The translations under genes and the position numbers were made by a program. The notes under the pieces are model-generated. The model was not told where the DNA came from. It ran no database searches and saw only the letters and a list, made by a program, of their open reading frames with translations. From Tilletiaria anomala UBC 951 (lineage: Eukaryota > Basidiomycota > Exobasidiomycetes > Georgefischeriales > Tilletiariaceae), in assembly GCF_000711695.1 (NCBI RefSeq), contig NW_013546991.1:91450-155449 (forward strand): a stretch of DNA of 64,000 bases. Reading direction: 5' to 3'. Each line of letters opens with the position of its first letter. Position 1 is the first letter of the stretch. Positions 35,630 through 63,223 of the stretch are shown here, one piece after another.

Positions 35630-38518
35630 TTAGCCGGCGAGCACGTCGCTGGCGGATGGGTCGCTCACTGAGCGAGCACACCAGCTGAATCCCTTTGAGA
35701 GCGCGAGCCCCAGTCAAAGTCGGGATAGACGGTGCACAGCACCGAAAGAAGCTATACGAGTGGGGGCTTGGATGTTTGAGGAAGGGGCACTGGTAGACTG
35801 GTGGAAGGATGAGCCGGTCGCCACCGCGCGGGATGCAGCTTGAAACGGGGTTTACCGTAACGCGCGGCTCGATGGCAAACCAGCAGGAGGTTCTCTGATG
35901 AGAGGAGATCGCAGGGATGGAGTCGAGCGTGACAAGCTTTAGATGCTGGATGGCGATCAAAGCACCAGTAGGCACGAGGAACAGCGGTCAGGGCGAGGGA
36001 AAGAAACAGCGCCGCGACGTGGCGGGCTACGATGCCATCTTTGGCTCCCCCAGCAAGCGGCAAGCTGTTTGCTGTGCAAGGTGACAGCGATGCTGATCAG
36101 GTCTGGATGCAGTTGCGGCTGCTAAGGATGGCCCCCTTTCCTATATGGCCTGCTCTCTCCAAAGCAAGCAAACACCACATGGTCGGAGCTACAGTGTCGT
36201 TGTAGTCAGCGTGTTGATGGCCCAAATGGCCACTCTTCACGGACTGTTGCTTTGGGAGGAGGGATCCTTGACTCGCTAGGCACTGCACCCGTCTTGGCAA
36301 GTCCATGTATCCAATGCCACCAGGGCAGTGTCTAGCACGCGCGTTGGCATGGCCGCAGCCAAGCTTGTGTGCATATTGTCTGTTTGCAGCAACAAAAGCA
36401 CTGCACCAGGCAAGTGGGTCTCATTGCCCCCAGGCGGGACAAAAAAAGAAAACAAACCAAGAGGAGAGCTGCGATGCAGTGTCTCAAACTCTCAGCTCCT
36501 CAGCAACTCACTTTGGACACTGATCCACCACTGCTAGCCGCCAGGGGTTACGACGACCAGGCGGGTCAAGGATTCTTCGTCTTTTCTCGGTATTCGCAGC
36601 GCCTATTTGGTGAGTCTTCCGGTAATTTGGTCATGAGACCCTTGTTTGTTGGAGATCTGCTGCAAAAATCCGGGAAATCTGCATAATTACTACCTACGTG
36701 TCTTCCAAGTTCACCGAATCCCAGACGTTGGCTGCACCTGGACAGATTAGCACCAAGCCCCACGAAGGGGGTGACGTCAAGGGTTGCGTGGATAGGCTGT
36801 TTGATACTTCATTTGCTCAGCGCGCCCCCTCATAAGCATCGGACGAGCGTCGAAACATCTCGCTCGGTTCGGTTTCGTTCTTTTACAAACTCCGGCACCC
36901 AGGCTGAATATTTGATGGACGTCTCAAAAGTTCCTGCAGCAGAACAAGATGGCGATCAACGCAAACACCTCCAGAATGCGCTCATTTGACGTATCTTACT
37001 GTGGCCTGATTGTATGACTGGCTCCGTTTTTGCTAGCCTTGGGAAGCCCATGGAGCTCATGAGATCGACAGGAAGAAACCTGTGGGTCCTCGACTGCTAA
37101 TTCTAGAGGCTCAAGCTGGGATGCAATGGTACGTTGCAGCCAAGCAAAAGGGCATGTGTCGCACGGCTTCCAAGTATAAGTCTTCCGCAAAGATTTTCAA
37201 GTACCCCGATGCGAAGCGCCAGCGGCCTTTCTCTGGTTTGGGGATACGTGCAAGGCGTCGCGAAATTATGGCCATCCTGCTTGCGCGAGCTCGAGGAAAC
37301 TATTAGAAATCCGAAAGCCTTCCATCTTTGATCAATTTCCAGACGAGTCTGCACACGACCCTTACAATGATCTGTAGATCAGAACGACAGATCGCTCAGG
37401 AGTAACTAAGCAACATTGAGCATCTTCTCTAGCCAGGACCGACGAAGGTCCCACTTTCGGACAAACCTTTGGTCATCGTCATTAATGCTCTGATCGTGCC
37501 GAGCAACGTCCCATTCGGCTGTTGGTCCCAAGTCATTGCAGTCGGTTCTTTATGCGCATTCCACATATCGTCTTCTTATATATTGAGACCACAATGAGCA
37601 ATGCTTGTCTGCCTTCCTTTTCCCACCAGGGCGCGCACGCAGAGAGCATCTCTCGCTGCTTCCCGGTTCGAACTTCGATTCCAGTCACTTTTCGAAGTTT
37701 AAGCCTTCATCTCGGGCCTCCTCAAGGACAAGGTCCACACGTGCGCAAAACGGAGGAAGGTTTCTTTTGCAGGCATCACCAGGTAAAATGCTGGTAAAAA
37801 TCCAAAAGACTCACTCATCATTTTGCCGGCGCTATGGAAAAGACTACACTCGAAAGAGCCGTAATCTTAGCCTGTGGCCCTTCGAGCTTCAACACGAGCG
37901 TCCGGAGCACTTCGCGGCTATTCCATTTTAAATACTCCGAGTTCAAGCGAACGGACTGTGAGGAGTTGTTCTGCTTGCTGAAGGCCTTAGGGTAGGTGAG
38001 TATTGAAATGCTTGTGTAGAATAGATAGACATGGTCTGCGACAAAAACCACATCTCCATGATCAATTTCCTCGTTTCGTCCTATTCACAAGTGCCTTCCC
38101 ACGAGATTTGAATATTTTGTAAGGACTTCATGAAGCACTCGGAAACACGGTTTGCATGATCTAGATCCACAAGCATCTATGGAAGAGAAGCTGTTTCTGC
38201 GACTATCGTGTTCAGGTAAGCTGGACAAAGTGTCGTTGCTGCATTTGAGCGGAGCCGCGCACTATCCAATCCATCCTGGCTCACGTAAGCCAACCCGACT
38301 TCTACGAGCTCCTTGCTGAACATTTTACATCTTGGTCCTTGCCTGGGCTTTGTTCACCTGCACCTGCACCAGCACCGTCAGCTTCAGTTTGACAAGATCG
38401 GGCCTTGTTGACAATCGTCGAAAAGCACAAAGTGGATCTGAAACATGATTAAAGGGAGTGGAGAGGAACATGATTAGGAGAGCAAAGTACATTCGAGATG
38501 ATAGGCCAGATTCTCTGA
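35630..38518. other. 2.9-kb intergenic region
   Basis: This stretch lies between the SPA2 start and the stop of the Atg22-like gene. Many short frames occur on both strands, but none shows family motifs or a splice-supported extension. It probably includes a long SPA2 leader and promoter. A copy of an 11-bp motif shared with the cluster to the right lies at 38249-38259. Confidence 0.45.
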
Positions 38519-40488
38519 TCAATTTTTTAGCTTTGGCCCTCGCGTGAGCAGAGGTTCAGGACCCCTTGCCCGCTGCTCCTCATCTTGGTGACGTTCACTC
38601 TCCACCAGGGCAGCGCCCCGCACATCGTCGGTCCACCATGCGAGGGCAATGCAGATCAGGAAGGCGGGCAAACACACCGCTGCCAGAAACGCGAAGGGGT
38701 GAGTAGTCGGTTCGCAATAAGCACGAGAAGATGTCTCACCTGCCGGAAGTCGGATATTATTGGTTGCGTTGACGATAGGACCGTTGATGACCTGAGGAAT
38801 CCAGGTCGTAGAGCACGAGAGAACGAGCTGGAAACCAAAGAATCGAATTTCGGATCCTTTGGGAAAGAGTTCAGAGAAGAGGACGCGGAAGAGAGGCGAA
38901 ACGATAGCGCCGGCAGCGTTCTGCAGGACCGCCATCAGGTAGAACTCCCAGCGTTGCTTGAAACCAATTGCAATGTGGGGTGACATGCCGAGGATTGCCC
39001 AAAAGGCAATGAATGCGACGATGGAGTAGCTGATGATCGCCCAATGGCGTAGAGTTAGGGAGGTGCGAGGGAAGATGTAGCGCCAAGCAGTGCCAACAAT
39101 GATAGATACGCCAGGCCCAACCATCGAGTAGCCAGTGAACTCCAGCAGGCTGGGTCGGAAGGTGAGGTTGAAAAGCGTGCCGGTCACAGTGCCAAAGGCG
39201 AAAAGAGTGTCGTTATAGATGGTGTAAGCTAAAAGGAAGCGGAAGGCGTCCGGGTAGCGATAGACAGCCTGAAACATCTGTGCAACTAGGTCGGTTGCAT
39301 AGTGTGCAGGGAAATGAACAGTGTATAGAGCATTGTATATCAGTTACGGGACACTGTTCCAATGATCCAAACCACTTACACGTCGTGAAAGGAAGCATGA
39401 ACCAAGACTTTCCTTCAGGAAGTGGCCGTCCGGATGGGCTTGGAAGGAACGGCCAGGCAACAAGCGCCAAAAAAAGGCAGACTGCACCAGCCACAGTTGT
39501 CATGGTGAGGCCCGCCGCAGTCGTAGCGGAAGCGACGATGAGGCATATGACGACCACATAGAATATTAGGATACTCAGGTTGAGAGAGTTGCTACCCCAG
39601 ATACTCATGCGCACGCCTCGGATCTCGCGATCCATGCGTGTGCTAACTGTAGCGTGCATCTGCTCTGCAACGACCAGATTCCCTTCGGTGCTCGCCTCAA
39701 CTTCAACATTCTTGCTCTCGGACGCTTCTTCGTGCATCTCACGCATGCAGTAAGGGATGAAGATATTGCCCCATACCTGGACAAGGAAGCCGATGATGTT
39801 GAAGACAACGTAGAGGCCAGCTAAGGTGTTATAGATGCTCGTTGAGTAGCCGGTGAGGGCCGTGATTGGAAGGCAGAGCGCGCCGTAGACGATGATGAAG
39901 AAGATGTACTGCTCCCGCTTGTAATCTGAACAATGCGGGGATGTGCGTCAAGCTTGGCTTTCAACAGTGATGGTGGTGTGAAAGAACGGCACCTTTCACT
40001 CACCTGTGTAATCACCGATGCCAGCAACAATAAAAACCAAAGCCCCAGAAACGGCATAGGAGATTGCGTTGAGGTAAAGGATGAAAGAAGTGAGGTTGAT
40101 GTCGCCCGCGCCGGCCATCGGCACAAGACAGGTAGTGGCAAAAAAATCGCAGCCGCTACCGGGAGCGTTACCGGGCTCGTGCCCGATGAGGTAGCCAATG
40201 TTTTGTATTTGAAAGCTAACATAAGAAGCGTAGCCTCCAAAGGCGGGTCCCGTCTGATAGAAAGCCACACCATGTCTCAGTATTCTTCTATGCGTATGCC
40301 AGATAAACGAGTTTGATCTGACCGAGTTGGCCGACCTGGGAGATAGAGGTACGCACCGCGAAACTGGATGCTCCATACGCCAGCTGGTAGCGACGCATAC
40401 GTTGCTCGAGGGGGAGATCGTTACTTCTTGGCCACTTCCATGGACAGAAGCGTGCCCACGACATCGGCAGTGACGGGATTCTGATCAT
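38519..40488 (-). CDS. Atg22-like vacuolar-type permease (MFS superfamily)
   Basis: Five exons (40488-40357, 40253-40004, 39925-39380, 39285-38740, 38679-38519) join to 544 aa. The exon 3/4 join gives PFTTFAQMFQAVYRYPDAFR, a hallmark of the Atg22 family. Other landmarks are RRYQLAYGASSFA at the start, NIGYLIG, VWGNIFIPYCMREMH, PLPEGKSW and SELFPKGSEIRFFGFQLVLS, with about 12 membrane segments. Yeast Atg22 exports leucine and other amino acids from the vacuole after autophagy. The last intron is 60 bp and keeps frame; retaining it would insert 20 residues before the final helix. The gene lies head to head with the isocyanide synthase, 615 bp away, so it may serve that cluster (substrate or product movement). 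This is inference. Confidence 0.86.
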
Positions 40489-40518: not shown

Positions 40519-40562
40519 TGTGGAGCTTAGGTGGAGCTCATGTGGAGCTTATGTGGAGCTTG
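40519..40562 (+). repeat. 4 x 11-bp tandem repeat in a divergent promoter
   Basis: Four back-to-back units of consensus TGTGGAGCTTA occupy 44 bp. Units 1 and 3 are identical; unit 2 differs at two bases and unit 4 at one. They begin about 30 bp upstream of the Atg22-like start. Confidence 0.85.
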
Positions 40563-40723: not shown

Positions 40724-40770
40724 AACGCTCCGAACAACGCTCCGATGAATGCAAAGAACGCTCCGAAGTT
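40724..40770 (+). repeat. Three copies of AACGCTCCGA
   Basis: The decamer AACGCTCCGA occurs three times within about 47 bp, with unequal spacing. It lies midway between the divergent Atg22-like and isocyanide synthase genes. Confidence 0.75.
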
Positions 40771-41103: not shown

Positions 41104-43362
41104 ATGACATCCCTCAATAGACTTACCAGCGCGGCGTTGCTAGAGACTCCCGTCAAAGTCTTGAGGACAGTGAGTGTATGACCTTGGGAGCGTTTTGCTT
41201 TAACTTGGAGATTGTCCTGAGAAGAGAGCAAAGGAAGCAAGGTGGATTCGCAAGTCTCTGATCGCCTTCATTATCCCTTTTCGCTTGCTAGGCCTCAGCA
41301 CCTCACCATGAAGTGCTAGGAACCTATATCTGTGATCACAATGGCCATGTACAGGAGTCTTTCGGCCGCTTGGCACCCACGGCCGCTGCCCAAATCTGCC
41401 TCAATCGAGGTGTCCGTTTGTCGTTTGAGCCACATTCCCTTCCATCGTACGCCAACATTCTGACCAACTGGGGCTTCAATGCCTACTTCGATAAGTTTGA
41501 CGACGGCAACATCGCGGAGCTGTTGACTCTTTTTCCGTGTTCCAATGTGGTTTTCCTGCCTCTTGGACCCACTCAACCCGCTATGCAGTCGGTGTGCCTG
41601 CTAGAGATGAGCGTCGGCGATCGCATCATTGGCGTTGCCATTACTCAGGCTGACTACCTCGGAGAAGCCCTCAGCATAAGCACCAATCACGTGCCATGGC
41701 GCTGTCTCCATCCTCGGGCTGACGTGCGTCTATGTGCCTTATTCACCCTACAAGGAGCGACCAAATCTCTCAGCAACGGGCCGCCGCTTCTCAGATCGGC
41801 GATCGACGTCGACAGTATAGTGGAGCAGGTTGTAGTCAACTTCGAACAATCCTTGAAGCACACCCCTGCCGTTGATCACTGGGACGACTTCTCGGACAGT
41901 CATGATACTGCCGGCGTGGGCGCTCTCCAAGGCAGGCGCAGATTCGCAGCAACAGTCCGCAATTTCGTCGTGAAGGGACAGCCCATCCCCTTCGTACTTC
42001 CTGCTTTCCCTTGTAAGAGCAGCAACAAGGTCGGTGACGTCGACGCAGCGAAGATCGGGGGCTGTCAAACATGTCCTATCCACTGACAGATTCTCCCACC
42101 AACCAGGACAAGATTAGCGGCCATCTGCCCGACAAAGGCGAAGATCTTGCTGCACAGACGCTTTGCCTCTTCGCTCGAGGTGTGCAGGACGTCTATCTAC
42201 CAGGCGCCATTATCCATATCGTCAGCGATGGTCACACTTTCTCGGACTTAAGTGAGCATCATGCCATGCGATTTAGTGCGCTTGAGATATTCTTACTACT
42301 CCCCCTTTTAGTCGGTGTCGACGACGCAGTGGTTGACGAATACACTGCAGCTCTGAAGCTCATCTTTAAGCGGCACGACCCGACTGGCTCCATCTTTCGC
42401 TTTCACGGTTTGGATGATCTGCTTTACACTTCGCCATTTGGGATAGAGACACGCCATGGATTTCAGGGCACCGCCTTGCCCGATCTCATGCGCCTTGCAC
42501 TCAGCGCTTTGTGGGGTCCGGAGAACATGTCCCAAATGGACGCTTCCATATTGAAGCAGTGTCAAGGGCGAGTGTCTGATGAATTGGCCTCAAATGCATG
42601 CTCCGCATTGATTTCATATCTCTCCCTTGCAATCGAGAAGGCTCTCCCGTTTCCTTCTCAAAGACCTGGAGCAAGTGGACAGCCTTCAGCATCTCAGCAA
42701 GTCTCAGCGCAAAAGGCACGCCATGGAAGCCGCTAAAGTCATGGTTGCAGTACGTGGAGGAGATATAATCAGCCACTGCGCTGGTCGCTGACCAGGTGCT
42801 TTTTTTGTGTGAATCAGCGCAACGAGGCTTACTCGAAGTAAGTGGACGCAGACATTGAAAGGGGATAAATGATTGACATGTACCTACCCTTGCGTTCCAC
42901 CCCCTGATAGGCTTGTCGAAATATCCTTTCCTGCGGCAGTCCGGCTCAGCATTCACCCGTGAGCTTGTAACACATTCAAATGCTCCGTTTTAGTGGCTGA
43001 CCTTCCGTAATCTGCCTAAAATGCATGGCCTCAGCCACAACAACAGCGGACCCAAGTACGGCGTTACGCTCATCCATCCTAATTTTCGCAGCTCTTCCCT
43101 TTTCGGAAAAGGCGGAGATCTTATCTCGGACCAGTCTATGGGTCACACACCTACGCCATGGCACAATGTGACCCTCCTGGTAGAGGTGGAGGAAAAGGGA
43201 AGCCCACGCTTTGCTTTCATGCATCGCACCAAGCTCATGGACCATCAGCCAAGTCCTGCTCATCACCTCGTCTGGGTCCCCATGCGCTGGGACGAGTCTG
43301 AAGAAGGAGCAACCGGGCTGAGCGATGGAGGGTACTTTTGCTTCCAGCGAGCAGAGGTCTGA
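41104..43362 (+). CDS. Dit1/PvcA-type isocyanide synthase
   Basis: Eight exons are proposed: 41104-41169, 41292-42029, 42107-42251, 42312-42573, 42638-42749, 42818-42837, 42911-42958 and 43035-43362, for about 572 aa (yeast Dit1 is 536). All joins keep phase. The 42573/42638 join rests on a weak donor and could be wrong. The C-terminal two-thirds match the Dit1/PvcA family: VLPAFPCKSSN, then DKISGHLPDKGEDLA, IVSDGHTFSDLIGVDDAVV, FLLKDLEQVDSLQHLSKSQR, NEAYSKLVEISFPAAVRLSI and TPWHN. Bacterial members convert the alpha-amine of Tyr or Trp to an isocyanide using ribulose 5-phosphate. Yeast Dit1 makes N-formyl-tyrosine for the spore wall. About 180 N-terminal residues are not recognised. Exon 6 is only 20 nt. 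The gene anchors the cluster. Confidence 0.85.
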
Positions 43363-44218
43363 GGCTGAGTTTGGGGCAAGAGCCGCAGGAGGTGAGGGAT
43401 GCCAATTAGTCGGATCTCCTCCACTTTTCGCTAAGCCGCGGCTTTCATTTTCTTATCTCATATCGTTCAATAGCGCAGGAATCGTGGGCAAAACGGCGCC
43501 GCTGACGGGACCAAAGCGTGGTCAGACTTTAGAGTTGTCGGCAGCAGTCTTCCTTTCTTGGGAGCAGCAAGGCAGAGAGTGGGAGCAACAGACCTTAATA
43601 TCATTTTTATCATCATACGTAAATGCTTTGAGCCATGACGGATACACTACCCGCAAGTAATATTTCCGATTTTAGAATGCAATTCCCGCCAGTGTCATAG
43701 GTGTCATGTCCTTGGACCACTCACCCTACTTTGACGGTCCAAGAACGCGACGCGCAGCTGATATTGGCAAAGGTACACCTGGATCAACTCGCAGATGAAT
43801 CTGGATGGTCAGGGTATTTGTCTTCGATGTATAGGGCGGAATTTGGTTGCGTTTTTGCTAGCGATGGGTGTGCATGGATGAGCGAGATGATGGCGTTTAG
43901 GAGGTGAGTGGATATGGCGATTGAACCGATGATCACAGGAAGGAGGTGTGGTACCAAGAATAAATGAAAGCTCCGAGTGGCGTTAATTTAGGAGAGCCGA
44001 AGGGCGAAGTTGAGCGGAGCTGTCGGCCGAGACTGCGCCGCGTAGCTTGTCGCGGCTCCGCGGATCCACCTCCAGAGGGAGCTGACTCTGCTGCTGGGTC
44101 AGAAAAGCCTCCGAGATCATGTTGACACAGTGGGAAAGCTCCGATATATATAGTACTGGAATCTTCTAACATCTACCGTGGGGAAAGGATAGTGAGTAAA
44201 TCATTCATCCCTTCCACT
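43363..44218. other. Intergenic region inside the cluster
   Basis: About 850 bp lies between the synthase stop and the glycosyltransferase start. No gene was recognised. It contains a reverse copy of the shared GCGGAGCCGCG motif at 44051-44061 and a TATA-like ATATATAT at about 44144-44151, roughly 70 bp before the glycosyltransferase ATG. Confidence 0.5.
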
Positions 44219-45964
44219 ATGGTTCATTTGAGTGAGTACTGTATCAGATAGACGATTTCTCCGATCTTGCCGGCGTGGACTATCAGGATCTCATGCTAAA
44301 AGTCTTCTTCAACTCACCAGTCTTCATCGCTTCACCCTCTCCAAGTCATGTGCTCCCTCTTTACGGCATGGCACAGCGCTTCGCTGCGGAGCCTGGCGTC
44401 ACGGTCACGTTCCTCGCCTCAGATGTCACCGTGGGTAAGTCGCTGGACCAGTGACATGGATGTCGATGGTATACTTGCTAACAAAGAGAACATCTTTGGC
44501 TACAATAGCTGAGCTCCGCCGCCTGGGCGCCATCCCGGAAGTAGAGGCGGGTGCAGCTGCCTCTATTCGTTGCATTGGTCTTCCCTCAAGTGGGGCAATC
44601 ACCTACAGCGATTTGAAGAATGGTCCTGCTAGCCTTATGAAGCTTTACCAGGATCTCATCGATCCGGCTACGGTGGCACTGAAGGCATTGGCTGCGGGTG
44701 AGGAAGTGGTGGACGCCTGGGGGCACCGGTTTAGCAGTATTAGCCCTGCAGTGGCGGTCGTCGCCTCTCCGTTCATCTTCTTTGGCCCGCCGGTGGCCAA
44801 GGAATTTGGTCTTCATTGGGCCACTTTTCTCCATACTTCTCCTCCAGGTAGTGCCGTCACGCTGTGCCTTGCCGAAGCGGCTGCCAAAGCAGATGCTCCA
44901 GATACTGTGCTGCTTGCCGAGGGCATCGAATTGGCCGGTGTGGGCCACTTCGACTCCTCCGAGTTCATCAACGTCTTCGGCGAGGACAGGCTCGTGAAGA
45001 GCAGCCCTACGGTGAGAAACTTATCATTATTGTGGAGTTTGAATGGTGACGAGCTGACAATCACTGACCTTTCAGATCTGGCTAGCAACCGGCTTTAGAA
45101 CACTGCTCGAGCAGTCCGACAGCTTGCTATTGAACAGCACGCTATCCTTGGATGCAGTAGTTCTTCCTCACCTTCAACCTCATTCCCGTGCTCAGCCAAT
45201 CCCAATCTTCGGCGTTGGACCGGTCGATATCATTTCTACCAGTAAATCTTTTGAAGAAGAGAAGGGTTTCCTGGACTTTCTCTCGGAGCAAGAGAAGAAG
45301 GGTCGACCCTGCATCCTAGCTTCGTTTGGAGCCTTGGGATCACTCCTTGAGGCGGAGAAAAACGAGCTCATTGCTGCTGCCGCCGCTGAGACAGAGCTTG
45401 CATTCATCATCGCCGACAAGACAGCGCCTGCTCTTGAAGTCTCCTCTCGAGCACATGAGAACATCTTGCTTGCTCCTTGGATACCGCAGGGACAACTATT
45501 GGAGCAAAACAGTGTTCAGCTCTTCATCGGCCATGCTGGCTGGAATGGTGCCCTCGAAGCACTTCGTGCAGGCGGTGAGAAGGTTGTCGATCTCCATCTA
45601 GCTTTTTCTTTGCTGATTCGCATCAACCTTCACAACTTTGTTTGCAGTCCCCCAGCTTGTTCGCCCGTTCAAGGCTGCAGAGCTAGTTGTAAACGCCCGT
45701 TACCTGTCTGACGTGCATAAGGTTGCTCGCTACGTGTCGAGTTCGGAGTCCAGTGGCTCTCACGCGATGAGCTACGCTGATGCCTTCGCCGCCTTCCGCA
45801 ACGGCTCGCTCGCCACGCTTGCTAGCAACGCTCGTCAAATCGGAATTCAATTGTCGGCAGATCTCGCTCCTGGAGCGTCTCGTGACCAGGAGGTTCGCAG
45901 GTGGCTGGAGTCTCTAGGGACGAGAGACGTACGCTTGGGGCAGGAACAAAATCAAATCATGTAA
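44219..45964 (+). CDS. UDP-glycosyltransferase (GT1 family)
   Basis: Five exons (44219-44231, 44321-44433, 44514-45011, 45076-45574, 45648-45964) join to 479 aa. The first exon is just 13 nt (MVHL plus one base) and joins to IFIASPSPSHVLPLYGMAQR, placing the acceptor-binding His of GT1 enzymes near residue 13. The C-terminal donor-binding motif is clear: LLAPWIPQGQLLEQNSVQLF, then GHAGWNGALEALRAGVPQLV, followed across the last splice by RPFKAAELVVNARYL. Such enzymes move sugar from UDP-sugar to a small acceptor in the cytosol. Its place between the synthase and the P450 suggests it decorates the cluster product. The acceptor is unknown. It ends 6 bp from the convergent P450 gene. Confidence 0.88.
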
Positions 45965-45970
45965 TTTGAA

Positions 45971-47944
45971 CTAGATGCAGGTCAAGATGAGATACAGATT
46001 GTGCACAGACAAAAGCCCTCCAGGTGTAAGGGAAGGCGCTGGACCTGGAGGCATGTTGAGCTGAAAGCTATGCAGAATGTGGACGAGAGCCGTGACGATT
46101 TCAGCCATGGCGAGCTTCCGTCCTGCGCCTGCAATGGTGCGAGGAAGCGGCGAGTGTAAGTGGTTTTCCGTACAGGCATTCAATTCAATAACCGGTGCTT
46201 ACAAAGGCGGACGCCTGCAGCAAAAGGGATATACTCTCCGGAGGTTTCGGCACGTCGAGCAAGAGCCTCGATCTCACGAGTAGTGCTTCCCCATCGTTCA
46301 GGTCGGAAGCTGGTCGGGTCAGGTGCCCACAGGGAAGACCTAGAGCTCCGATGAAGTCCATACGCGTGCCAGCCGACATAGGTGCCTGCAGCGACGGTGA
46401 TCGCGTGCGAACTGTTCTGCTCAGGATTAAAAAGGTGGATGATCGTGTCAGAGGAAGCTCGTCGATTGAGTAGCATCGGGATCGGAGGGTAGAGCCTCAT
46501 CGTCTCGTATATGAAAGCCATGAGCTGTGGCAGTCGTTCTAGATGATCCTTTCCCACGATAGGCGCATCAAACGCGCCTCCTTCGAAGACTGACCGCACT
46601 TCTGCACGGAGTCTCCTCTGTAGGTTCTGAGACAAGAAGCAATTGATTCAACAATCAAGCTGGTGCGTAGATTGTAAGGCAGGTTTGAGCTTACTGGGTG
46701 GGTGGCGAGGACCATCAAAAGAGAGTTTAGAGCATTTTGCGTGTTCTCGTGTCCTGCAATGAACAGAACTGCAGAGGCATCCGATCAGCAAAACTAGCGA
46801 TCACAGAAAGCAAAGTCAACCGCACTTTTAGTGTTATCCATGACTTCCTGTGCAGTCCAACATCCCTCTTCGAATTCTGCTTGCATGTCACAAGGAATTT
46901 TGCTGCGACAAACAATAGCAGTAATACTTAGTGGTAAACTTTCAAAAAAAAGGATGGGACCCGATGGCATGGACGCACCCCATCCTGCTGTCACTTCCTT
47001 GGGCGATTAGAACCTTCTCAACCTCAGCTTCCATCGCTTCGACCGCTGTTCTAGCCTCGGTCCGGCCTGGGAATATGTACGACCACCGTGGATGGTCGAA
47101 CTTGGGAAAAGCGAGGGCGAAAGGCTGGAAGATGTGGAATTTGACTCGTGAATGGATGGAGTGGAGTAAAGGAGGGGGATCCTTGAGAAACTGAGGAGAA
47201 CGAAGGTGGTGGCCTTGTTCAGCATCCAAAGGCTCTCTTAAAAGACTTGTCCTCACTTCTATACGCTCATCACGAACCTCGAGATCGACACCGAATATAT
47301 TTCGACACACGATATCCATGGTGAAGCGCTGAAGAATTGCGTTAATACCGATTGGTTTGTCCGAAGCACGAAGGGCCAGCACTTTGACCAAACGTTGCGA
47401 TGAGTCATTGAGAGAAATATAATCAACCTCCATGCGCAATGGTGGCCCAAGCAATTTGCGATACCGCTTGTACGGCTGGCGCAAAAGTAGTTCAGATCAG
47501 CGTCGCCGAACGAAAAGCCTCCCCGCGATCATTTTTATTCACCTCGCCGTGCTCAGATATTATATTTGAGCCGGTCAACTGGCTGATAACAGCGCCAGGT
47601 ATCTTCCGATGGTTTCCGGACTTGGCGAACAGGTCATCGTCGCCACCGTTGCCTCGGAAGAGTTGACGAATCGCCGCTGGATGGCAGCACAGCAAATTCC
47701 AGCGTCCTCCGAAAAAGAGGACAACCATGCCTGTACATCGAAGACGAGGCTCAATGTATCGAGCGAATATCACGTCTTGTCCGAGCGGCGGTAACCCGAC
47801 CTTGTGGCGAAGAAAAGGCAGCCAAGAAACCCATATTGGCACTACGGGCACAGATCGATCAAAGGAAGCAGGTGGGGATGATATCGTGCGAACCACCCAG
47901 TAGATTGTGGCTGCAACAGCGACAGCTGCGAGTACGAAAGACAT
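45971..47944 (-). CDS. Cytochrome P450 monooxygenase
   Basis: Seven exons (47944-47543, 47475-47257, 47190-46979, 46902-46826, 46768-46695, 46626-46203, 46128-45971) join to 521 aa, the usual P450 length. An N-terminal anchor (MSFVLAAVAVAATIYWVV) is followed by all the key motifs: I-helix AGHENTQN (formed after the 46825-46769 splice), ExxR in FIYETMRLYPP, the PERF-like DPTSFRPERW, and the heme loop PFAAGVRLCAGRKLAMAE with its Cys ligand at a splice join. The yeast Dit1 partner Dit2 is also a P450 (CYP56), and fungal isocyanide synthases commonly pair with P450s. It probably oxidises the isocyanide or formamide intermediate at the ER. One intron (66 bp) is stop-free and keeps frame. Confidence 0.93.
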
Positions 47945-48439
47945 GTTCGACCTTGAAACGAACCGTGAGCGCCACCAACGTTGCCGATTTGTAGAGGTAA
48001 CTGGTGATGATCATGGAGGGGTGTTCGAATTCATATCGGTCGCGAGCCATGGGTGTACTCCTGAATGTGATCTGCTTGGAATCAATAACACAGCGCGACT
48101 GAAACACCCAACCTGGCCGCGTGGGCGGAGGGATCTCGGAGACTTTCTACGCCACCTTCAGCAGCCGAATTTTGATGTTCAGTCTTGAAGTGACTACACT
48201 TTCCAAACTGGATTACTGCGTCCTCTTCGAGGCAGATCACTGTGCGGTGTTAACTTCCATTTTGCAACATCATTAGGCTACATGCTGAACTTCGAGAAGC
48301 ATGAAAAACATGGCCTAAGGTCACAAGCTTTCGGAGAAAAGAAGCGCTGCGTGACTCATGTGTCAAGGCGGGCGGACATGTGGTGCTAGTGGGCGGGTGG
48401 GCGGAGCCGCGCATTATCTGGTTATTTGGGCTTCATGGC
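47945..48439. other. Intergenic region between P450 and methyltransferase
   Basis: About 495 bp lies upstream of the P450 start and downstream of the methyltransferase stop. It carries one copy of the shared motif GCGGAGCCGCG at 48401-48411. No gene was recognised. Confidence 0.5.
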
Positions 48440-49699
48440 TCACGTAGATTGCTTCTCGCTTTTGCGAGCCACGGCACATACAAAATTGTGGAAGGCTTGG
48501 TGCTCACTGCACTTGTGCACAATGCGCTTGCCCCAATTTACCATCTCATCGGCCGTGATACCCCAGCTAGGACCGAGAATGGGCGCCAAAGTTTGCACCA
48601 AGGCGAGGTAGTCGTGTTCCATCAGAGCGCCAAGCGGGCCAGCCTTAGCGTCGACGGGTACTGAAGCAATATCAACCCTGATCGTACTGCTATCGAAGCC
48701 GGCTTCCGCCATGAATTTGTCAAGGCGGGTGCCAGCAAGAGGGTCGCCGCCACGCTTGAGCAGCGAACCACGCATGCCTGGGACGCAAATTTGAAGGAAG
48801 CTGCCTGATCAGTGCGAAACCAGAGTCGAGAGCTGTGTCAACGTTTGCGCGATTTGCGAATTCACCTCTTGTGTTCCAGTCCGTGATGTCTGCGCTCTCC
48901 CCGTTGCGGCAGCGCAGCTCACCATCGGGTTCGATAAGCTGCACCCAGCCTCCAGGCTTGACAACGCGATACACCTCTTTCACAGCGGGCACCCACTCGT
49001 GAGCCTGTAGAGAAAATAAGAGCGGTGGCAGCTTGTGTCAACACGGCGAAGGGCAGCAGTCTTGGGCCCAGATCCTTGTCACCTTGAGAGCTCCAGTGAA
49101 AAAGCGCATCTGGACAAAGTCAAATGATCCATCATTATACGGAAGTGACTTGAGGACATCTCCGACCTGGAATTCGACCTTAGCAGCATCGCCCACTTGA
49201 ACGGGGGAATATGTAGGCGCAAAATCGGTCGCAAACGCTTTGCACTTGGGATAAAGATTCGCGACTTGCTGCTCGGTAGGTGGGTAGAGAGTTAAGAATG
49301 TCAATGCAAATTGGTATTTTCTAGGTATCCCCCTCAGTCGGTCCTCGCTGTGGAGGTAGCCTCGACACTGACCTTGATCCAACTTCCGGGACCGCAGCCC
49401 ACATCTAATACCTTGCCGCCTTGTTCAAGAACCTTGAGTGCCTCGGGAGCGCCGATGGGTCCACCGAACAAGTGGAGCATCAAGCGGTGCTGCTTCTCCA
49501 GCCGGTCGTTCTCTTCGGCATCAGCAGGAAGAGCATAGATGCTCTGTCAGCAGAGCCGAGATAGTGAGCATCGCTTTGTCACCAAGTGTAGTTTTGATGC
49601 CAGGCAACGACTTACCTCTTTGACGTTATGGTAGAAGCGCGAGTTGGTCCCTTCCGCGTTGCTAAGACCTTGAACGATGGTGGATTGGTCGACAGTCAT
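48440..49699 (-). CDS. Class I SAM-dependent methyltransferase
   Basis: Five exons (49699-49616, 49543-49373, 49268-49083, 49004-48866, 48777-48440) join to 305 aa. The SAM-binding motif I is VLDVGCGPGSWIK, at the end of exon 2. Then come the acidic loop AFATDFAPTYSP, the post-I segment YNDGSFDFVQMRFFTGALK and motif III VVKPGGWVQLIEPDGE. The last join (RG to MRGSLLKRGGDP) requires a donor at 48865; reading straight through would put the C-terminus out of frame. The fold is that of small-molecule O- or N-methyltransferases common in fungal metabolite clusters. It lies divergent from the ABC exporter and in tandem with the P450. The substrate is unknown. Confidence 0.88.
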
Positions 49700-50316
49700 G
49701 TTGCCGAGTGCAGGGAGAAAGGGAGAGATGGAAGAAGCGGCGCACCGAAGCGGGGGAATTGCTTTCGATCAGGCTGCGTACCAGCCATTTGTATAAAGCA
49801 CACTTGAGAAAAACGTCACCTCATATCCACCCATTGGCTTCGAATGCACCTGCGGTAGGGAGAGGTAGCTGGCTTTGCACAGGCAGAGGGCTGTGGAAAA
49901 GGCTCCGCGATCGCGCACATGCACCTCCACTTGGTCCCAAGAAAGGCTCCGAGCGTGCAGCGAATGCCAAGCCAAATGCATGCATCATTCCTGTTCCGCA
50001 TGTGAGGTCATGCATGTCTCGCCAACAGGCAACTCGGAGCTTTATGATGCGTCCATTCCACAGACCTGGGTAGAAGTAGCCCAGCCGTCGGTGCAACCAA
50101 ATTACATTGATTGAGATCAAGTCGCGTTACATGCTGAAGCTCATATGGTTTTTCACGGAGGGTTACGTATCGCGTAATTGCGAAATCGAGTCCCATCCTG
50201 TCTTTCTCTTCGTCGGGCATCCTTCTCTTCTCTTCTCTTTATCGAGCATCCTCTTCCATCCTGCTCTTGTCCTTTTTCGTGCTCTACTTGTACCAGCCGA
50301 CTCGTCCCTTGCGACG
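49700..50316. promoter_or_regulatory. Divergent promoter of the methyltransferase and ABC exporter
   Basis: This 617-bp region separates two divergent cluster genes. A pyrimidine-rich TCTTCTC tract at about 50215-50240 lies shortly before the exporter start. No long frame or clear motif was found. Confidence 0.45.
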
Positions 50317-53300
50317 ATGGTCACCAAATATCCATCCCCGCGCCCGGGAAGAATGGGCTGGCTGGGGCCAATGGCTTGGGCCACGGGCCCAGAGCAGCTC
50401 ATGAACTTGGTAGGGCTCATCGCTGCCATCATGGCTGGCGCCACGCAACCTCTTATGAACATCCCCTTCGGCCAGGTGAGTGTGTCGCTCGCTGGATTTG
50501 CTTTGAAGTCGACCGCGCACATGTGAATGACTGACTTATGGCGTTGCACCGATCTGGCAGATCACCGATCGCTTCGTCACTGTCGATGTGAACGACCTGA
50601 ACCGACTTCGCGACCGCACGGATCAACAAGTCGTCTACTTTCTCTATCTTGGTCTCGCGACATTTTTCGGCACCTACATTTACGTAGCGCTTTGGGTACG
50701 ATCTTGCATTAGTACCGGCCGATCGATGCTGTCGCTTGCAGCGTCTGAACTGGTGTACACTAACCTTCCTCCTCTCATTCTCATGGCTTAACAGGCGTAT
50801 ACTGGAGAAAAGACTACCTCGCGTCTGCGCTTAGAATACTTCCGATCGTTGCTTCGGCTTGTCAGTGGCTCTTGGATAGTTTCGGCCCAAGGGGCTCAAT
50901 CTGACCCTTCCTCCGAGTCTGTCGATGCAGGATCTGGAATTCCATGAGACCGAGGGTGCAGGTGCTCTTACCTCTCGCCTGGAGACTGACTTACGGAATG
51001 TGCAGTCCGGCATCAGCGAGAAGTTGCCGCTTAACGCAATGTATCTGTCCTGCGGTGTCACGGGCTTCACAGGCGAGTGCGAGCTGAGGCTCTGATTGTC
51101 AGCTGTCAGCCGTCTCATCTTGCTAAGTGCTATTACTGACCGCGACCATCTTTCCTATGCAGTGGCTCTGGTCAAGGACTGGAGGCTTGGTCTTGCCCTG
51201 CTGGCAATGCTCCCCTGCTTGGTTGGCATAAGCTTGATTTTTGCCCGAACCGCCATCGGCTTCACGATTCAGATTATGTCGATGAGTAACCAGGCTAACA
51301 CCCTGGCGGAAGAGGCCCTGGGTTCAGTTCGGACTGTACAGAGCCTGTGCGCTGAGAAGGACCTCAGTCATAAATACAACGACGGGATCGCTCGCTCTCT
51401 TCGCCTTGGCCGCAAGAGAGCTATAGCAATTGCCGGGTGCATGGCAGGCTTCACCCTGGTCATCTACTGTGGCTACTCGCTCGCCTTCTATTTGGGGGCA
51501 ATTCTTGTTCGCTCTGGTCGTACTAGTCCGGGCAACGTCATCACTGTTTTCCTCAGCGTCATGATGGGCTCCTTTGCGCTGGCGCAAATTCCGTCTAACA
51601 TTCAAGGTGGGCAAACTTCTTCGCGTACTACTGAGTAGTGCTGAAGGACGCCGCAGCTTTTGCCTTGGTCAAGCCACTCATTGCTTCCTTGCCTCTCACT
51701 TTTGCAGGCTTCGTCTCTGCTAGAGCCTCATTTGCATCCCTGACTCGCATCATTGAGCGCACGCCGACGATCCACAACCCGGTCGAATCGCGCTTGACGC
51801 TGCCGTGTGGCCCAGTTCACATCGCTTTTAACAATGTGACCTTTGCGTACCCTAGCCGACCAGATCGACGTCTGCTGGAAAAATTTTCCCTCAACTTTCC
51901 TGCAGGCTCTTCGACGGCTGTTATCGGACCCAGCGGGGCCGGTAAGTCGACAATTCTCGCCCTATTGGAGCGTTTTTACGATCCTCAGGATGGCACCGTG
52001 CTCGTTGGCGGTCACGACGTGCGCGACTTCGAGCTGAAGTATCTGCGCGGCAGCGTCCTTGCCTATGTGCCGCAAGAGCCGTCTCTCTTCCAGGCAAGTA
52101 TTTTGGAAAATGTCGGCTACGGCATCTCTCCGACGTTGAACGAATCAACTGAACAACGCCGTTATCGAATTGAGTCGGCTTGCCGACTCGCCAACGCACA
52201 CGACTTCATCATGGCGCTTCCGGACAGATACAATACGCAGGTGGGGCAAGGGGGGCTGGAATTGTCAGGAGGACAGCGCGCGCGCATCGCTATAGCTCGT
52301 GCTGTAGTTGCGGACCCACGAGTCCTGCTGCTTGACGAGATTACCAGCAACCTTGACGCGCTGTCTGAGCAGGCCGTTAATCGTGGCCTTGAAGGCGCCT
52401 CGAAAGGTCGCACTACTGTGAGCTCCAGAAACCTTGACGACCTTGACTTCAGGTCTTGATTATTCACCGTCCTCTTTTCCTTTGTGCTATTAGATTCTCG
52501 TTACTCATCGGCAATCATCGCTCCCTGCTACCCAACGTGTTGTGGTCATCAACCACGGTCGCAAGGTGGCAGAAGGAACCTTAGCGGACGTGCGAAAGGA
52601 CGAGTCGATCGCAGGTCTGCAGCTTTTTGGGTGCGGTATGGCAAAAGAGAGTGATGTAGAGCAGTTAGGCACGTCAAAGGAGGTTTCCAGCCCGGACGGT
52701 GAGAGCATATTGAATCTGCTGGAGATTCAAATATTGAACCTGACGCCGACTGAACATTCTTTTGTTGCCTTCTCTTGCCTCAGACCAATTGCTTCCGATC
52801 AACCCTTACAGTAAAGACGTGGACGATGCTGAGAAAGGCAATACCAATGCGTCTATCGGCGGAGTTACCAATGGCCGTTTGAGGATGTTGTGGAGGCTCA
52901 GCGCTGGCAGTCGCACGCTCATTGCTGGCGGCATTGTTGGTTGCGGTGGTAAGTAGCCTGTGTGACAGCTTCATCATAATGTGCTTATTCTTGCTCTCGC
53001 ATCTTTCAGTGGCTGGTATGATCTATCCGGTCTTTGCGTGAGGGCATATTCAAGTGGTGTACGCCACACGTGCCGTGATTCATTCTTCTTTTTACCTTCT
53101 TCAGGATCCTCTATGCGAATGCATACATTGACCTCGACATTGGAGCTGCATCAGCGACCGATCAGAACCGCAATGCACTTTGGTTCTTTGTGGCCGCTCT
53201 GGTGGGCGGCGGCGGTGTTTTTCTTCAGAACGTCTGTTTGTCCATTGCATCAGAGCACCTGGCAGCAAATCTCCAGACGACGGTCTTCGCAACTCTTCTC

Positions 53301-55317
53301 CAGAAGCCGATCTCCTTCATTGATTCACAGTCACCTGGTGGGCTGCTCTCGACCCTCAACTCGAGCACGGAAGCAATCCAAAACGTCACTGGGAGCTCAG
53401 TTGGGAACGTAATCTCATCTTTTCTGACGCTCATTTGTGGTGCAATCGTTGCCATCTCGTACAACTGGAAATTTGCTCTCGTCAACTTGGTGAGTCGGTT
53501 CGAGGCGCTTTCCGGTAATTATGACGATCCGCAAGCTTATCGATGACGGTTCCCTGCTCGCTTGTTCAAGTGCCTCACTCCCATCACATTGCTCACAGGC
53601 TACTGCCGTTTGAAGACGATCGACGCCAAAGAGGGCCGACTTGCCAAAGCGCATGAACCTGCTGTTCGTCTTGCGTGCGAGGCGACCACAAGCATCCGGA
53701 CCGTTGCGCTCCTGGCACGCGAGGAAAGCGTCCACAAGGAATTTGCAGCTCACCTCGCCATCCCTCATCGCTACGTCAAGCGCATGGCCCTTTTGGACAG
53801 CGGGCTCTTTGCGCTCTCCCAAACCAACATGTTTCTCGTTATCGCGATGGGCTTCTGGTACGGTAGTGTCCTCATCTCGCAAGGCCAGCTGAACGCCCAT
53901 GACTTCTTCGTCGGTTTTGTGAGCGCTTCGGAGGGCCCTGAGGTGCGTTCATTGACCTGATGACTGACCTTTTTTGTTTGTGATTCGAACAGATGGCGAT
54001 CGTGTATGTGAATGACAATGTAGTCACGGGTGGACGAGTCCTTATTCCTTTATTATCTTTCCCAACCCTTCCGCTCTAACCTCCTCAACTTCAGGTCTGG
54101 CTCATTCCAGTGCGTCAATCTCTTTTCTCAGACACCGCAGCTGTCACAGGCCAAGGAAGGGGCCGGTAAGATTGTCGAGATGCTGGCTGATTCTGGTGCG
54201 GACCCCTTCACCGCGCCATCAGGGGTGAGCCCAGCTTTCGATTCGGCCTTGACTCTTTCAGACGTACGATTCGGCTACCCGTCGCGCAGGGGCAACGCCC
54301 TGGAAGGGGTGGGCCTTGAGGTCGCTCCGGGGTCATACACAGCGCTGTGTGGTCCATCAGGCAGCGGCAAGAGCACCATTCTGGCTCTTATCGAGCGCTT
54401 TTATTCGCCGCACAGCGGCCAGATCACTCTAGGCAAACATACCATAGGGTCGTCACCAGTGACGCAATACCGCAGCCGCATCGCACTAGTCACACAGGAA
54501 CCAGTCCTCTACAGCGCCTCGATCCGTGATAACCTCGTCCTCGGCCTTCCGAAAGACTTGATGCTATCACAGACCCAGGGAGAGCTTGAGAAGGCTATCC
54601 ATGTGGCGATGCGCGAGGCCAACATCCATCAAACAATCGAGGGACTTCCTGAGGGTTCGCAGAAGCTCTGATCCGAGTTGGAAGACGCTCTCAATTTGAC
54701 TTTCTCCACTTGCGAACATGTTTTCACACAGGTCTCGAAACACACATCGGCTCCCGAGGCGTGCAACTCTCGTGAGTCGTATCGGATGCTTGTTTTCAGG
54801 CGATTCTGAGCCTAGGAGGACGCTTTGACTTCATGAATTAACGTTCCTGTTCACTGTCTTGCAGGGGTGGCCAACGTCAGCGCCTGGTACTTGCACGATC
54901 GTACGTAGAGCATAAGTAGCTTGGAAGAGAGATCCGATATATGCTGATGGTCAACCAATACCCACGCTCTTTCCTTTCCCTCCGACTCTTTCCGCCAACA
55001 GGCTCCTGCGCCGTCCCGCTCTCCTCCTGCTCGATGAGGCCACTTCTTCCCTCGATGCTCGCAGCGAGCGTCTGATTCAGACGGCGCTAGATAGCGGCGC
55101 GACAACATCTCAACGTACGACCATCTGCGTGGCCCATCGACTCGCTACGATTCGCCAAGCCAACAACATCTTCGTCCTGGCGGATGGGAGAGTCGTCGAT
55201 TCGGGGACCTTCGAGGAACTCGCGAATCGGGATGGCCTTTTCCGCGAGATGCTCCAGCAACAGAATGCTGAGGCGGTTCAAGAAATCTCTTCCAACCAGT
55301 CCAAGCTTCAAATGTAG
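50317..55317 (+). CDS. ABCB (MDR/Ste6-type) full-length ABC exporter
   Basis: Sixteen exons are proposed, at 50317-50475, 50561-50695, 50795-50860, 50931-51072, 51163-51606, 51708-52417, 52494-52698, 52784-52948, 53010-53037, 53105-53489, 53571-53918, 53993-54007, 54111-54654, 54732-54771, 54865-54900 and 55002-55317. They give about 1245 aa in TMD-NBD-TMD-NBD order. NBD1 has Walker A GPSGAGKST (about 389-397), LSGGQ and VLLLDEITSNLD. NBD2 has GPSGSGKST, LSGGQRQRL (split by introns) and LLLLDEATSSLD, then the H-loop CVAHRLATI. Intron 4 (51073-51162) is a GC-AG intron. Exons of 28 and 15 nt are predicted; the 15-nt one is the least certain. ABCB exporters expel lipophilic compounds, so it probably exports the cluster product or protects the host. 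Confidence 0.88.
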
Positions 55318-58300
55318 CGATTACTACAAATATGTTCTCTTTTTCGTCGTACGCGGCGTCGACCATCCTAGGAGTAGGGTGGTGAATGCTGGGAGTTGCC
55401 TAATATGATGGGTTTGTGAAGTGGAGCGTAAACCGGCGAAAGATGGGCAGAGCTCGTGCAAGGCAATCAAAAAGGCTGTCAGAAGCGGATGACTGATAGA
55501 GTCATGATCCATGATAGGCGTGCTTACCTGTTGATCGGATACGTTTTCTTGCGTGTGCACTCAGCTCACTTGCGCAGTGTTGTATGTACAATACCATGAC
55601 GCCAAGCCACACCCGCCATTTTCGTCGGGTTATCCGAACCTTTGGCATATGCCACGTATAAACCGGCTAAGCGGAAGCGCGTGCATAAAAGTTTGAATAA
55701 GCACCCTCAAAAAAGGATTGACAGATGCCATTGCGCGTGCCTGGTTGGCGCATTGTTGGCGCCAGACCAGCTGAGGCCTCAGCGGACACTTGCGGGCTAC
55801 GAAGCGTAGTCCCTTCATCCAGCGTTGCGCTAGAAAGACTGTTCCCGCGTTCGATTCGAAAATACCAGCTCTTCAATCTCAACGGTCCGAACTCAGGTCG
55901 CCACTTCTATTTGAATCTCGAGGACTTGGCCGCGCTGACTTGGAGGCAGGTTTGCGAACGGAAAACGAGTCTACATGAAAGGACTGGCGCCTCCGATGCT
56001 GGAGTGGGCTTCAGGCTTCGCATCCTTGATCTGATCCTCGTATCATTTAAGGTTTGTAGCTGACAACCGAACAGATCCTTTGCTGACCCTGTCCAGAGAC
56101 CCAAACGATATTTGTGAGATGCGAAGGCGAAGGTTTAAAATAGGAAATACGGCGCTCCTCGTCATAGGCGCATTGCCAAGCAGCTGTCACCTTCGTCCGA
56201 AGTTCGAAAGGCCCAAAATCAGTGTCGGAAGCAGTTTGGGTTTAGGTAGCTTCCCCCATCAAAATATGCATCAACGGAATTCTGACCCCATGTATTGAAC
56301 TGTTTGCCGGTGGTGTGTCCGTATTCATTGAGCCTAATGAAACCCGAGCCGACAAGGCACATATTCATCACCTCGGCACCGGCCAACCCAGTGTTCGGGT
56401 CCAGCAAGTTGTTACGTCAAGTAGGGAGGCCGGAGAGAAGCTCAGGTAAGAGATAAGTGAAGAAAATTTAACCCCAACCAGAACCTTGCTAACAAGCAGA
56501 AAGTGGGATGTTTCGTCTTGATCTCAAAGTCGCCATCAAAGTGCTTGTTGAAACTGGAGCTTCCATGTCAAACTAATATCTATGATGCTTGCTTGGTTCT
56601 CCCCTTGCAGCCAGGAAACATGTGGCATGAAAGCAGTGTAAGGCTGTCGTCAAATGGTAAGAACACATTTCAGACAGCGCAGAAACGCTTGACATCTGTT
56701 CAGGTGACTTGAATTGATATTCATCTGGGATCTATGTGACGGTATGAAGAGGGTCTGCGCTTACCACAGCAATTTGACTTTGAATGGTGCGGGGAAACGG
56801 TGTTTTCTAGGGTGTAAGGCTAGCAGACCGCCGACCAACCCAAAGACTTTGTTTGCGAACGCATCTATATCAGTAGAGTTGGGGTTGCCTAGGAGCATTG
56901 TTGCAAGGACTTCGGCGTATTACGACCAACGCGTCCCGACGCTGCCTTGTCGAGAGTAATTTTTAATTGACCCCCCGATCCGACAATGGAAGCTAATTAT
57001 GGTGCAAACCCTCGCCCCCCCGCTAATGATCAAGATGCGGCTCGCAAAGTATGGCAATGCACCTGCTTGGGCCGCAGCTGCACTAACACCGTCGACTTTG
57101 ACATCCGCTGATGCCATTCGAGCGACAAGGAGTTGAGTCCTTAGTACGCTATCAGGGCTGCCTGATGGGCGGAGTGGGCCGACCAGGCTTGCAAGCCTCT
57201 ATACAATTTGTTCCACGTGTCGGGGTATACGCTTAAGCCTCAAGCTTATGATTCTAGTACGAGCTTTTTCGGTATCGGAGTCAATACCGATATTTCAGCC
57301 GGTCGAGCGCTTGTCTACATCCGCTCCGCGGATGCAGATGTGCTGCCGTGGATCAAGAATCCGTACCGCAAAACGGGTCTACAAGTTCAAGTGATGTCCA
57401 TGGGCTAGAAAGACCTCCGCAGGCTCACTCGCAGGACCAAAGACGTCAGCGGCGAACGAATCGCGCTGATGCCTAAGTTCCGTGACTGCAGAAGGAATGC
57501 GGTTGCGCCCTACACAGTAGATAACCGCACTTTCGATATTCCTGAGCAGCTTCATGAAGCTGAGGTCGAGGAGATGATTGTCGTCCTCGTGAAGACCATC
57601 AGAGGCAAGGCTCGGCATCAATCCTGCATGTTCCCTCAGAGCTGTCTTAAAACAGGGTAGCTACTTTGGCCCGCGTCTCAATAACTATGACATCAAGGGG
57701 TTTAAGATTACAGGCATGCGGCGGGTATGAGGAGGTAATATATACAGCGTCACACTGCTGATAGGAAACAGGGCGGTCAATTGTATCATTGGTGATCCTG
57801 GCCTTTACATGTGATTTGTTGCCATATTGCTATTTATGATCACACACTGGCGCTATCTGGACACTTCCGTCATTGGATGCGTCGCCTTGCAAGGAGGTGA
57901 GTGAGCAGCAAAGGTGAATGGGGGAGGGAGGATATTGGCTCTATGTGATGACTTAATCGAACGCCAATCCACCGCGCAATAGATTCATTCAACTCATCTT
58001 TGATCAGCAGATTTCCCATATCCTCCTCCGGAACCATAACACCACTCTAATTTATTTTTACCTCTAGTGAAGCGTATATGCACTATGCTGTGGCCATCTT
58101 GTACCGGCCTTTGCGGACGAGTTTTATTTATAGGAAGGAAATACCTAGTTCGTCCGCGGAGTCCCACCTTTGAGCAACGCCTGAGGGCTTGCTCCATGCC
58201 ATAGATATCGTAAGTTTGATTTCTGGAAGCGATCCCTCGGCAAGCCGCCTTTCAGCACTGCAAGAGCTCCAAAAGAGTCATGACGCGGCGTGGAAGACCT

Positions 58301-58920
58301 CTACGCGGCGATCATTTCCATAACGTGAAGCAATGGTGGATACCATACCAAACAGTCGACGGCGCGCTCGGCGCTACAAGGTACGGCACGGAAGGCAGCA
58401 AAGTGAGCTAGGGGAACGATGGTTTCGAGGGCGCCAAGTCCCACAGCGCATTGAAGCAACCGGAGTAGTATTCGTCTCGCGGGCCGTGAAGGTTGAGTAC
58501 TATCCGCATATCCTGCTTCCAGCACGGGAGGGTTTGAATGAGATACAAATGCCGCACTTGATACCGACAATGAACTGACTTCTAAACCCGGGCCGCGGAA
58601 GGGCATTACCCATCCCCCCCTCGTTGTTGGCAGCAAACCTCTTAGGGTTAGGCTTAGAAGCAAAAAAAATCACACAATGGAGCATTGGGCTCCCAGTTGA
58701 GCATATTTCTTCAAGTATTCAACATGCCAGAATCCCCAATTATGGGGTGGTTGTTTTAATGTTTACATTCAGAATGGTTACTGCGCTTTCACTCAAGGAC
58801 GACTCTCATCAAATTGACTTCTATTTGATTTTGCCAAACACAATAGTCGGTAGACACTCGCCATCCAATCATCCAATCAGAAAAAAGGACTTGCTAAGTT
58901 CTCCTCACTGATTTCCATTT
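55318..58920. other. Subtelomeric 3.6-kb region with possible coding relics
   Basis: No intact gene was recognised. Short fragments look protein-like but are isolated. On the minus strand 56407-56219 reads LDPNTGLAGAEVMNMCLVGS and continues for about 40 residues. Also on the minus strand, 57117-56920 reads VDGVSAAAAQAGALPYFASR. On the plus strand 57208-57405 reads FGIGVNTDISAGRALVYIRS, followed 60 bp later by 57469-57657. They do not join into one frame by obvious splices. They may be decayed genes or mobile-element remains. From about 58.6 kb the sequence turns clearly more AT-rich. Confidence 0.4.

Positions 58921-60697: not shown

Positions 60698-63223
<2,526 letters not shown>

Follow-up and report, generated by a model that had tools for sequence, protein, structure and literature searches.

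A candidate isocyanide-type biosynthetic gene cluster near a telomere of Tilletiaria anomala

A candidate biosynthetic gene cluster was identified in the basidiomycete Tilletiaria anomala UBC 951, within a window of 64,000 nucleotides (nt) that represents positions 91,450–155,449 of contig NW_013546991.1 (assembly GCF_000711695.1) and that was analyzed as a whole. Five adjoining, intact and intron-rich genes at 41,104–55,317 of this window encode an isocyanide synthase (ICS), a glycosyltransferase of the GT1 family, a cytochrome P450, a methyltransferase dependent on S-adenosylmethionine (SAM) and an ATP-binding cassette (ABC) transporter of the ABCB type. The locus is interpreted here, with a probability of about one half, as a subtelomeric fungal cluster in which an isonitrile (or N-formyl) compound derived from an amino acid would be oxidized, methylated, probably glycosylated and exported.

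Introns were removed at splice sites predicted from consensus sequences and protein anchors. Once 35 introns had been spliced out (mean 78 nt, range 50–122 nt; 3.7 per coding kb), all five reading frames were complete, and the following gene models were obtained:

41,104–43,362, plus strand: ICS of the Dit1/PvcA type, one-domain; 8 exons, 567 amino acids (aa)
44,219–45,964, plus strand: GT1 glycosyltransferase of the UDP-glycosyltransferase (UGT) type, divergent; 5 exons, 487 aa
45,971–47,944, minus strand: cytochrome P450; 6 exons, 543 aa
48,440–49,699, minus strand: SAM-dependent methyltransferase; 5 exons, 314 aa
50,317–55,317, plus strand: ABCB transporter, full-length and of the MDR/P-glycoprotein type; 16 exons, 1,251 aa

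The ICS and GT1 genes are separated by 856 bp, the GT1 and P450 genes lie tail to tail with their ends 6 bp apart, and the methyltransferase and ABC transporter genes diverge from a common control region of 617 bp. Eight alternative splice models of the ICS gene satisfy the anchors equally, introns 4 and 5 being ambiguous; in the ABC transporter gene one intron was set as GC-AG, and alternatives existed at several junctions. The sequence-only reading that preceded this analysis had claimed five intact genes in this interval, near a telomere. All five were found, with the Pfam family of each confirmed, and their intactness is borne out by frames that are complete after splicing and by the retention of key motifs. 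A pseudogene or chance origin was ruled out by the start-to-stop open models and the presence of these motifs.

The proximity of the telomere also holds, with an (AGGGTT)n array of the TTAGGG type at 63,906–64,000 (15.8 copies, 100% match), within which the window ends. As general genome traits, this telomere type and the intron density point to a fungal host, perhaps of the basidiomycetes, although an early-diverging fungus would also be compatible with them. Just inside this array lies a 26-bp tandem repeat (4.1 copies, 63,421–63,526), and the G+C content falls towards the telomere. Stop-to-stop open reading frames of at least 300 codons number 10 in positions 1–36,000, 37% of which they cover, and none occurs in the terminal 26 kb (38,400–64,000), because the genes of that region are broken by many introns.

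Domains and conserved residues of the five proteins

The ICS carries the DIT1_PvcA domain (PF05141) at aa 244–510 (E = 1.8e-66; 224.9 bits against a curated cut-off of 26.4), and this was the only Pfam family detected at E ≤ 0.01, with no TauD-type dioxygenase domain. Comparison with the PDB up to E = 1 gave three matches, all to PvcA or isonitrile synthases, namely PvcA (3e59, E = 2.2e-23) and the isonitrile synthase sequences 9dhm (E = 1.4e-22) and 9dh4 (E = 1.6e-22); the first 244 aa matched nothing in Pfam or the PDB up to E = 10. When the ICS core was aligned to six bacterial ICSs, drawn from five of 13 matched plasmid records, it retained 32 of the 40 columns invariant across the bacterial proteins, or 45 of 68 when a divergent ICS-TauD fusion was left out and five bacterial ICSs were compared; the start methionine is counted among the lost columns because only the trimmed core was aligned. 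The earlier assignment of the protein as a Dit1/PvcA-type synthase is thus upheld by both the domain match and the retained columns, and from its family the product would be an isonitrile. Against the NCBIfam model of L-tyrosine isonitrile synthase (NF045653), the protein scored 100.4 bits, below the equivalog cut-off of 600. Its C-terminal end (RWD...GGYFCF) is similar to the end of yeast Dit1 (GGHFVI; RFDIGEGGHFVI), as deduced from a primer sequence given in PMC7345447, a match that is short and only suggestive. Among viral contigs searched for ICS relatives, three pattern matches were obtained, none of them a relative, and a search of genome contigs with a bacterial protein as the query returned one locus, from the query's own species.

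The GT1 protein matches the UDPGT family (PF00201) with E = 4.5e-12 (46 bits against a cut-off of 19.5), and its best match among UGT structures has E = 1.6e-15. It carries the donor motif HAGWN (HxGWN) and a candidate catalytic His in SHVLP, the alignment of this His being a low-scoring segment. The P450 belongs to PF00067 (E = 4.5e-48; 164.6 bits) and contains the heme motif, the EXXR motif, the I-helix sequence AGHENT and PERW. Aligned with a provisional yeast Dit2 sequence, it showed 147 identities in 530 positions (28%; 195 bits), which is a lead and not a test, and the label "Dit2-like" used below refers to this comparison only. Membership of CYP56 is set at 40% identity or more (PMC6723986), and the 28% reached here refers to this single provisional Dit2 sequence.

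The methyltransferase matches Methyltransf_25 (PF13649; E = 4.4e-16, 59.8 bits) and has an intact SAM motif, LDVGCGPG; nine weak matches to structures were found (best E = 2e-8). In the transporter, ABC_membrane (343.9 bits) and ABC_tran (201.3 bits) each match two stretches, giving the order transmembrane domain, nucleotide-binding domain, transmembrane domain, nucleotide-binding domain; with two copies each of Walker A, LSGGQ, Walker B and the H-loop, both nucleotide-binding sites are complete. The best structure matches are of the ABCB type (best E = 1.7e-208).

A pathway can be proposed from these families in which the ICS would convert an amino acid, most likely L-tyrosine, and ribulose-5-phosphate into an isonitrile, the Dit2-like P450 would oxidize or couple the phenol-bearing product, the methyltransferase would place a methyl group on the phenol or carboxylate, the GT1 enzyme would probably attach a sugar to the phenol or acid, which is the weakest step, and the ABCB pump would export the product. 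The final product may carry the isonitrile or its hydrolyzed N-formyl form. The suggestion, made before this analysis, of a cluster for a glycosylated or methylated isocyanide or formamide therefore stands in part: the Dit1/PvcA-type synthase is real and is accompanied by intact tailoring and export genes, but the transfer of a sugar or methyl group onto an isocyanide is only inferred.

Flanking genes and a promoter sequence common to the cluster

The ICS gene is divergent from an ATG22-like gene, with which it has a common control region that also holds a short repeat:

38,519–40,484, minus strand: ATG22-like vacuolar effluxer; PF11700 matched by three separate reading-frame segments (E = 2.4e-31, 3.8e-8 and 1.4e-12)
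40,519–40,561: 11-bp tandem repeat TGTGGAGCTTA, 3.9 copies, in the control region shared by the ATG22-like gene and the ICS gene

ATG22 proteins are taken here to belong to the major facilitator superfamily (MFS). The ATG22-like gene may be a sixth member of the cluster, because approximately 60% of ICS clusters contain an MFS gene (PMC10153163).

The sole Pfam family found in six-frame scans of the flanks (35,640–38,521 and 55,319–61,902) was NMT1/THI5. The interval that separates the cluster from the telomere holds two thiamine genes, one NMT1/THI5-like (approximately 59,150–60,415, minus strand) and one THI4-like (approximately 61,880–63,150, plus strand); the latter keeps the stretch SCMDP, the sequence setting in which yeast Thi4 has the Cys that donates sulphur.

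A sequence word, GCTCCGA, first spotted by eye, recurs in the control regions of the cluster. When the 6-, 7- and 8-mers of four control regions were ranked against the first 38 kb of the window, CTCCGA was the top 6-mer (10 copies, in four of four regions) and GCTCCGA the top 7-mer (seven copies, in three of four regions), the P450 region holding the short form only. Across the window GCTCCGA occurs 15 times, with seven copies in the control regions, two elsewhere in the cluster and six in the first 38 kb. The copies are distributed as follows:

40727–40766, plus strand: upstream of the ICS gene; GCTCCGA three times, at 40727, 40739 and 40760
43970–44144, plus strand: upstream of the GT1 gene; GCTCCGA at 43970 and 44138, CTCCGA at 44109
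48136–48336, minus strand: upstream of the P450 gene; CTCCGA only, at 48136 and 48331
49946–50040: common methyltransferase/ABC control region; GCTCCGA at 49946 (plus strand) and 50034 (minus strand)

In dinucleotide shuffles, any 6-mer with at least 10 copies appeared in six of 1000 trials, and any 7-mer with at least seven copies in three or more regions in one of 1000. Common promoter motifs were likewise used to delimit clusters in a published survey of ICS clusters (PMC10153163).

Several observations tell against the proposed isonitrile pathway or its regulation as one unit. In a control made with real non-coding DNA, by overlapping draws from nine stretches in the window that total 11,252 bases, 59 of 1000 draws equaled the 7-mer count, and the top 8-mers are each confined to one control region. 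The promoter word is suggestive only, because of these two results; its standing as strong proof of co-regulation was downgraded by the real non-coding control, and its presence across the cluster may be regarded as evidence of moderate strength that the genes are co-regulated. The flank scans, which were run on unspliced DNA where genes broken by introns can escape, revealed neither a hydratase nor a TauD or regulator family. The similarity of the GT1 protein to UDPGT is confined to aa 296–403; in an alignment with the plant UGT structure 2c1x it has a Ser where the catalytic Asp aligns, leaving the His-Asp dyad incomplete, and its donor motif ends in AAEL, without the usual D/E-Q pair, although the register is ambiguous. 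Because of the partial UDPGT match, the Ser at the Asp position and the missing D/E-Q pair, sugar transfer is uncertain, and the reaction of the GT1 protein appears the least certain among the enzymes of the cluster. The chemistry of Dit1 itself has been disputed: the yeast enzyme has been argued to make N-formyl tyrosine and not to be an ICS (PMC7345447), and Aspergillus nidulans, in which a Dit1-like protein is encoded, is described as giving no isonitrile signal in a 2026 study (PMC13005658). In favor of the pathway, Phycomyces, which encodes a Dit1-like protein, was found in the same study to release free tyrosine isonitrile, the attribution of this compound to Dit1 being the inference of its authors (PMC13005658).

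Comparison with known systems and alternative readings

The xanthocillin (xan) cluster of Aspergillus fumigatus likewise combines an ICS with a P450 homologous to Dit2 (XanG) and a methyltransferase (XanE), but its ICS, XanB, is an ICS-dioxygenase, whereas that of the window is one-domain and unfused (PMC5974471). Also encoded in xan are XanA, a homologue of hydratases, and the transcription factor XanC, but no transporter is predicted there (PMC5974471). Relative to xan, the T. anomala cluster adds the GT1 and ABCB genes, and the hydratase, TauD and regulator families are those that were not found in the unspliced flank scans. ICS proteins were reported in four Basidiomycota species by Lim et al. 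(PMC5974471). The dit1/dit2 family likewise pairs a one-domain ICS with a P450, and dit ICSs are reported to be closer to bacterial ICSs than to other fungal ICSs; however, dit1 and dit2 are divergent neighbors in Saccharomycotina (PMC10153163), with a common promoter in yeasts having both genes (PMC6723986), whereas in the window the ICS (plus strand) and P450 (minus strand) genes are convergent with the GT1 gene in between.

A glycosylated isocyanide is the product of the rhabduscin cluster of Xenorhabdus (isnA-isnB-GT), in which an ICS is likewise accompanied by a glycosyltransferase; this cluster is bacterial, consists of three genes without a P450, methyltransferase or ABC pump among them, and employs IsnB to form a vinyl group (PMC6386379). 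No IsnB-type TauD dioxygenase was found in the ICS of the window or in the unspliced scans of its flanks. IsnB is an Fe/2-oxoglutarate dioxygenase. The T. anomala locus might be a fungal counterpart of rhabduscin reached by another route, with a Dit1-type ICS, a Dit2-like P450 in place of the dioxygenase, GT1 and methyltransferase caps and P-glycoprotein-type export of a glycosylated isonitrile, a specific proposal that we consider tentative and rather doubtful. On a Burkholderia stagnalis plasmid (NZ_CP156687.1, 7824–16651), an ICS, an efflux pump, a GT1-like protein (EryCIII-like_C, 36.7 bits) and an annotated SAM methyltransferase occur in one stretch, but that stretch also contains a fused ICS-TauD and its pump is of the MFS type. 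Homology of the two glycosyltransferases was rejected, no significant BLASTP similarity being detected between them. A Streptomyces plasmid (2523–6792) has an annotated P450 adjoining an ICS, beside an asparagine synthase. The crm fumicicolins likewise present a fungal N-formyl or isocyano acid linked to mannitol or hexose; in this case the linkage is an ester, attributed tentatively to an acyltransferase that acts after an ICS-nonribosomal peptide synthetase, and not to a GT1 (PMC9381783).

Three papers on basidiomycetes were set aside as sources: in a study of plant pathogens (PMC4633277) the three places suggesting CYP56 concern other families with numbers that start with 56, in a Volvariella paper (PMC3602538) the names DIT1 and DIT2 occur in the reference list only, and in a paper on Tremellomycetes (PMC6627453) CYP56 is absent as a whole word. 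Among the matches listed from open-licence PubMed Central papers, there was neither a fungal ICS cluster with a GT1 gene nor a combination of ICS, P450 and methyltransferase with GT1 and an ABCB pump. The remark in the sequence-only reading that the pathway was not recognizable as a described one accordingly applies to the full combination, but not to its parts, since ICS with P450 and methyltransferase (xanthocillin, PMC5974471) and ICS with glycosyltransferase (rhabduscin, PMC6386379) were already known. The gene set is a plausible, unusual variant with parts known from these two systems.

The interval might instead comprise two units side by side, an ICS gene, to which the ATG22-like gene might belong, and next to it a GT1-P450-methyltransferase-ABC cluster of separate function, e.g., for a glycolipid or another glycoside. 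A glycosyltransferase of the GT1 type, a P450 and a pump are a common glycolipid recipe, e.g., for sophorolipid, and the spacing between the ICS and GT1 genes and the limitation of the P450 control region to the shorter CTCCGA agree with such a division; however, the P450 aligns over its length with the provisional Dit2 sequence, again as a lead only, and GCTCCGA stands upstream of the ICS, GT1 and methyltransferase/ABC genes alike, so that two separate units are considered unlikely. The same resemblance to Dit2 can be turned to another account, in which the locus would be of the dit type: the ICS and the Dit2-like P450 would produce N-formyl tyrosine and a wall monomer resembling bisformyl-dityrosine, the pump would export it, and the GT1 and methyltransferase genes would be bystanders. 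Yeast Dit1 and Dit2 do make a wall precursor (PMC7345447), and the C-terminal end of the ICS recalls that of Dit1. This account is nevertheless distinctly unlikely, given that the ICS and P450 genes are neither adjacent nor divergent, unlike those of yeasts with a common promoter (PMC6723986; PMC10153163), that the GT1 gene sits between them, and that all five genes are intact.

The identity of the substrate is a further point on which the proposed pathway could differ, since the fungal enzyme CrmA uses valine (PMC9381783) and the score of the ICS falls far under the tyrosine-synthase cut-off. The use of another amino acid, e.g., valine or tryptophan, to give a different isonitrile is judged quite improbable here, as the best matches of the ICS are PvcA and the tyrosine/tryptophan isonitrile synthases and the neighboring P450 resembles, on the provisional comparison above, a tyrosine-coupling P450.

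Implications for fungal isocyanide biosynthesis

ICS clusters, of which 3,800 were counted in 3,300 fungal genomes (PMC10153163), constitute a large and little-characterized class of fungal pathways, and published studies disagree on whether enzymes of the Dit1 type yield isonitriles or N-formyl tyrosine only (PMC7345447; PMC13005658). If the isonitrile reading of the T. anomala locus is true, a Dit1-type ICS that comes with a dedicated glycosyltransferase, methyltransferase and pump would offer a direct route to asking whether fungi make capped, exported isonitriles, for which roles in metal binding or antibiosis would be possible. In a basidiomycete host, it would also place a gene pair of the dit type in a phylum from which dit clusters were absent according to a published survey.

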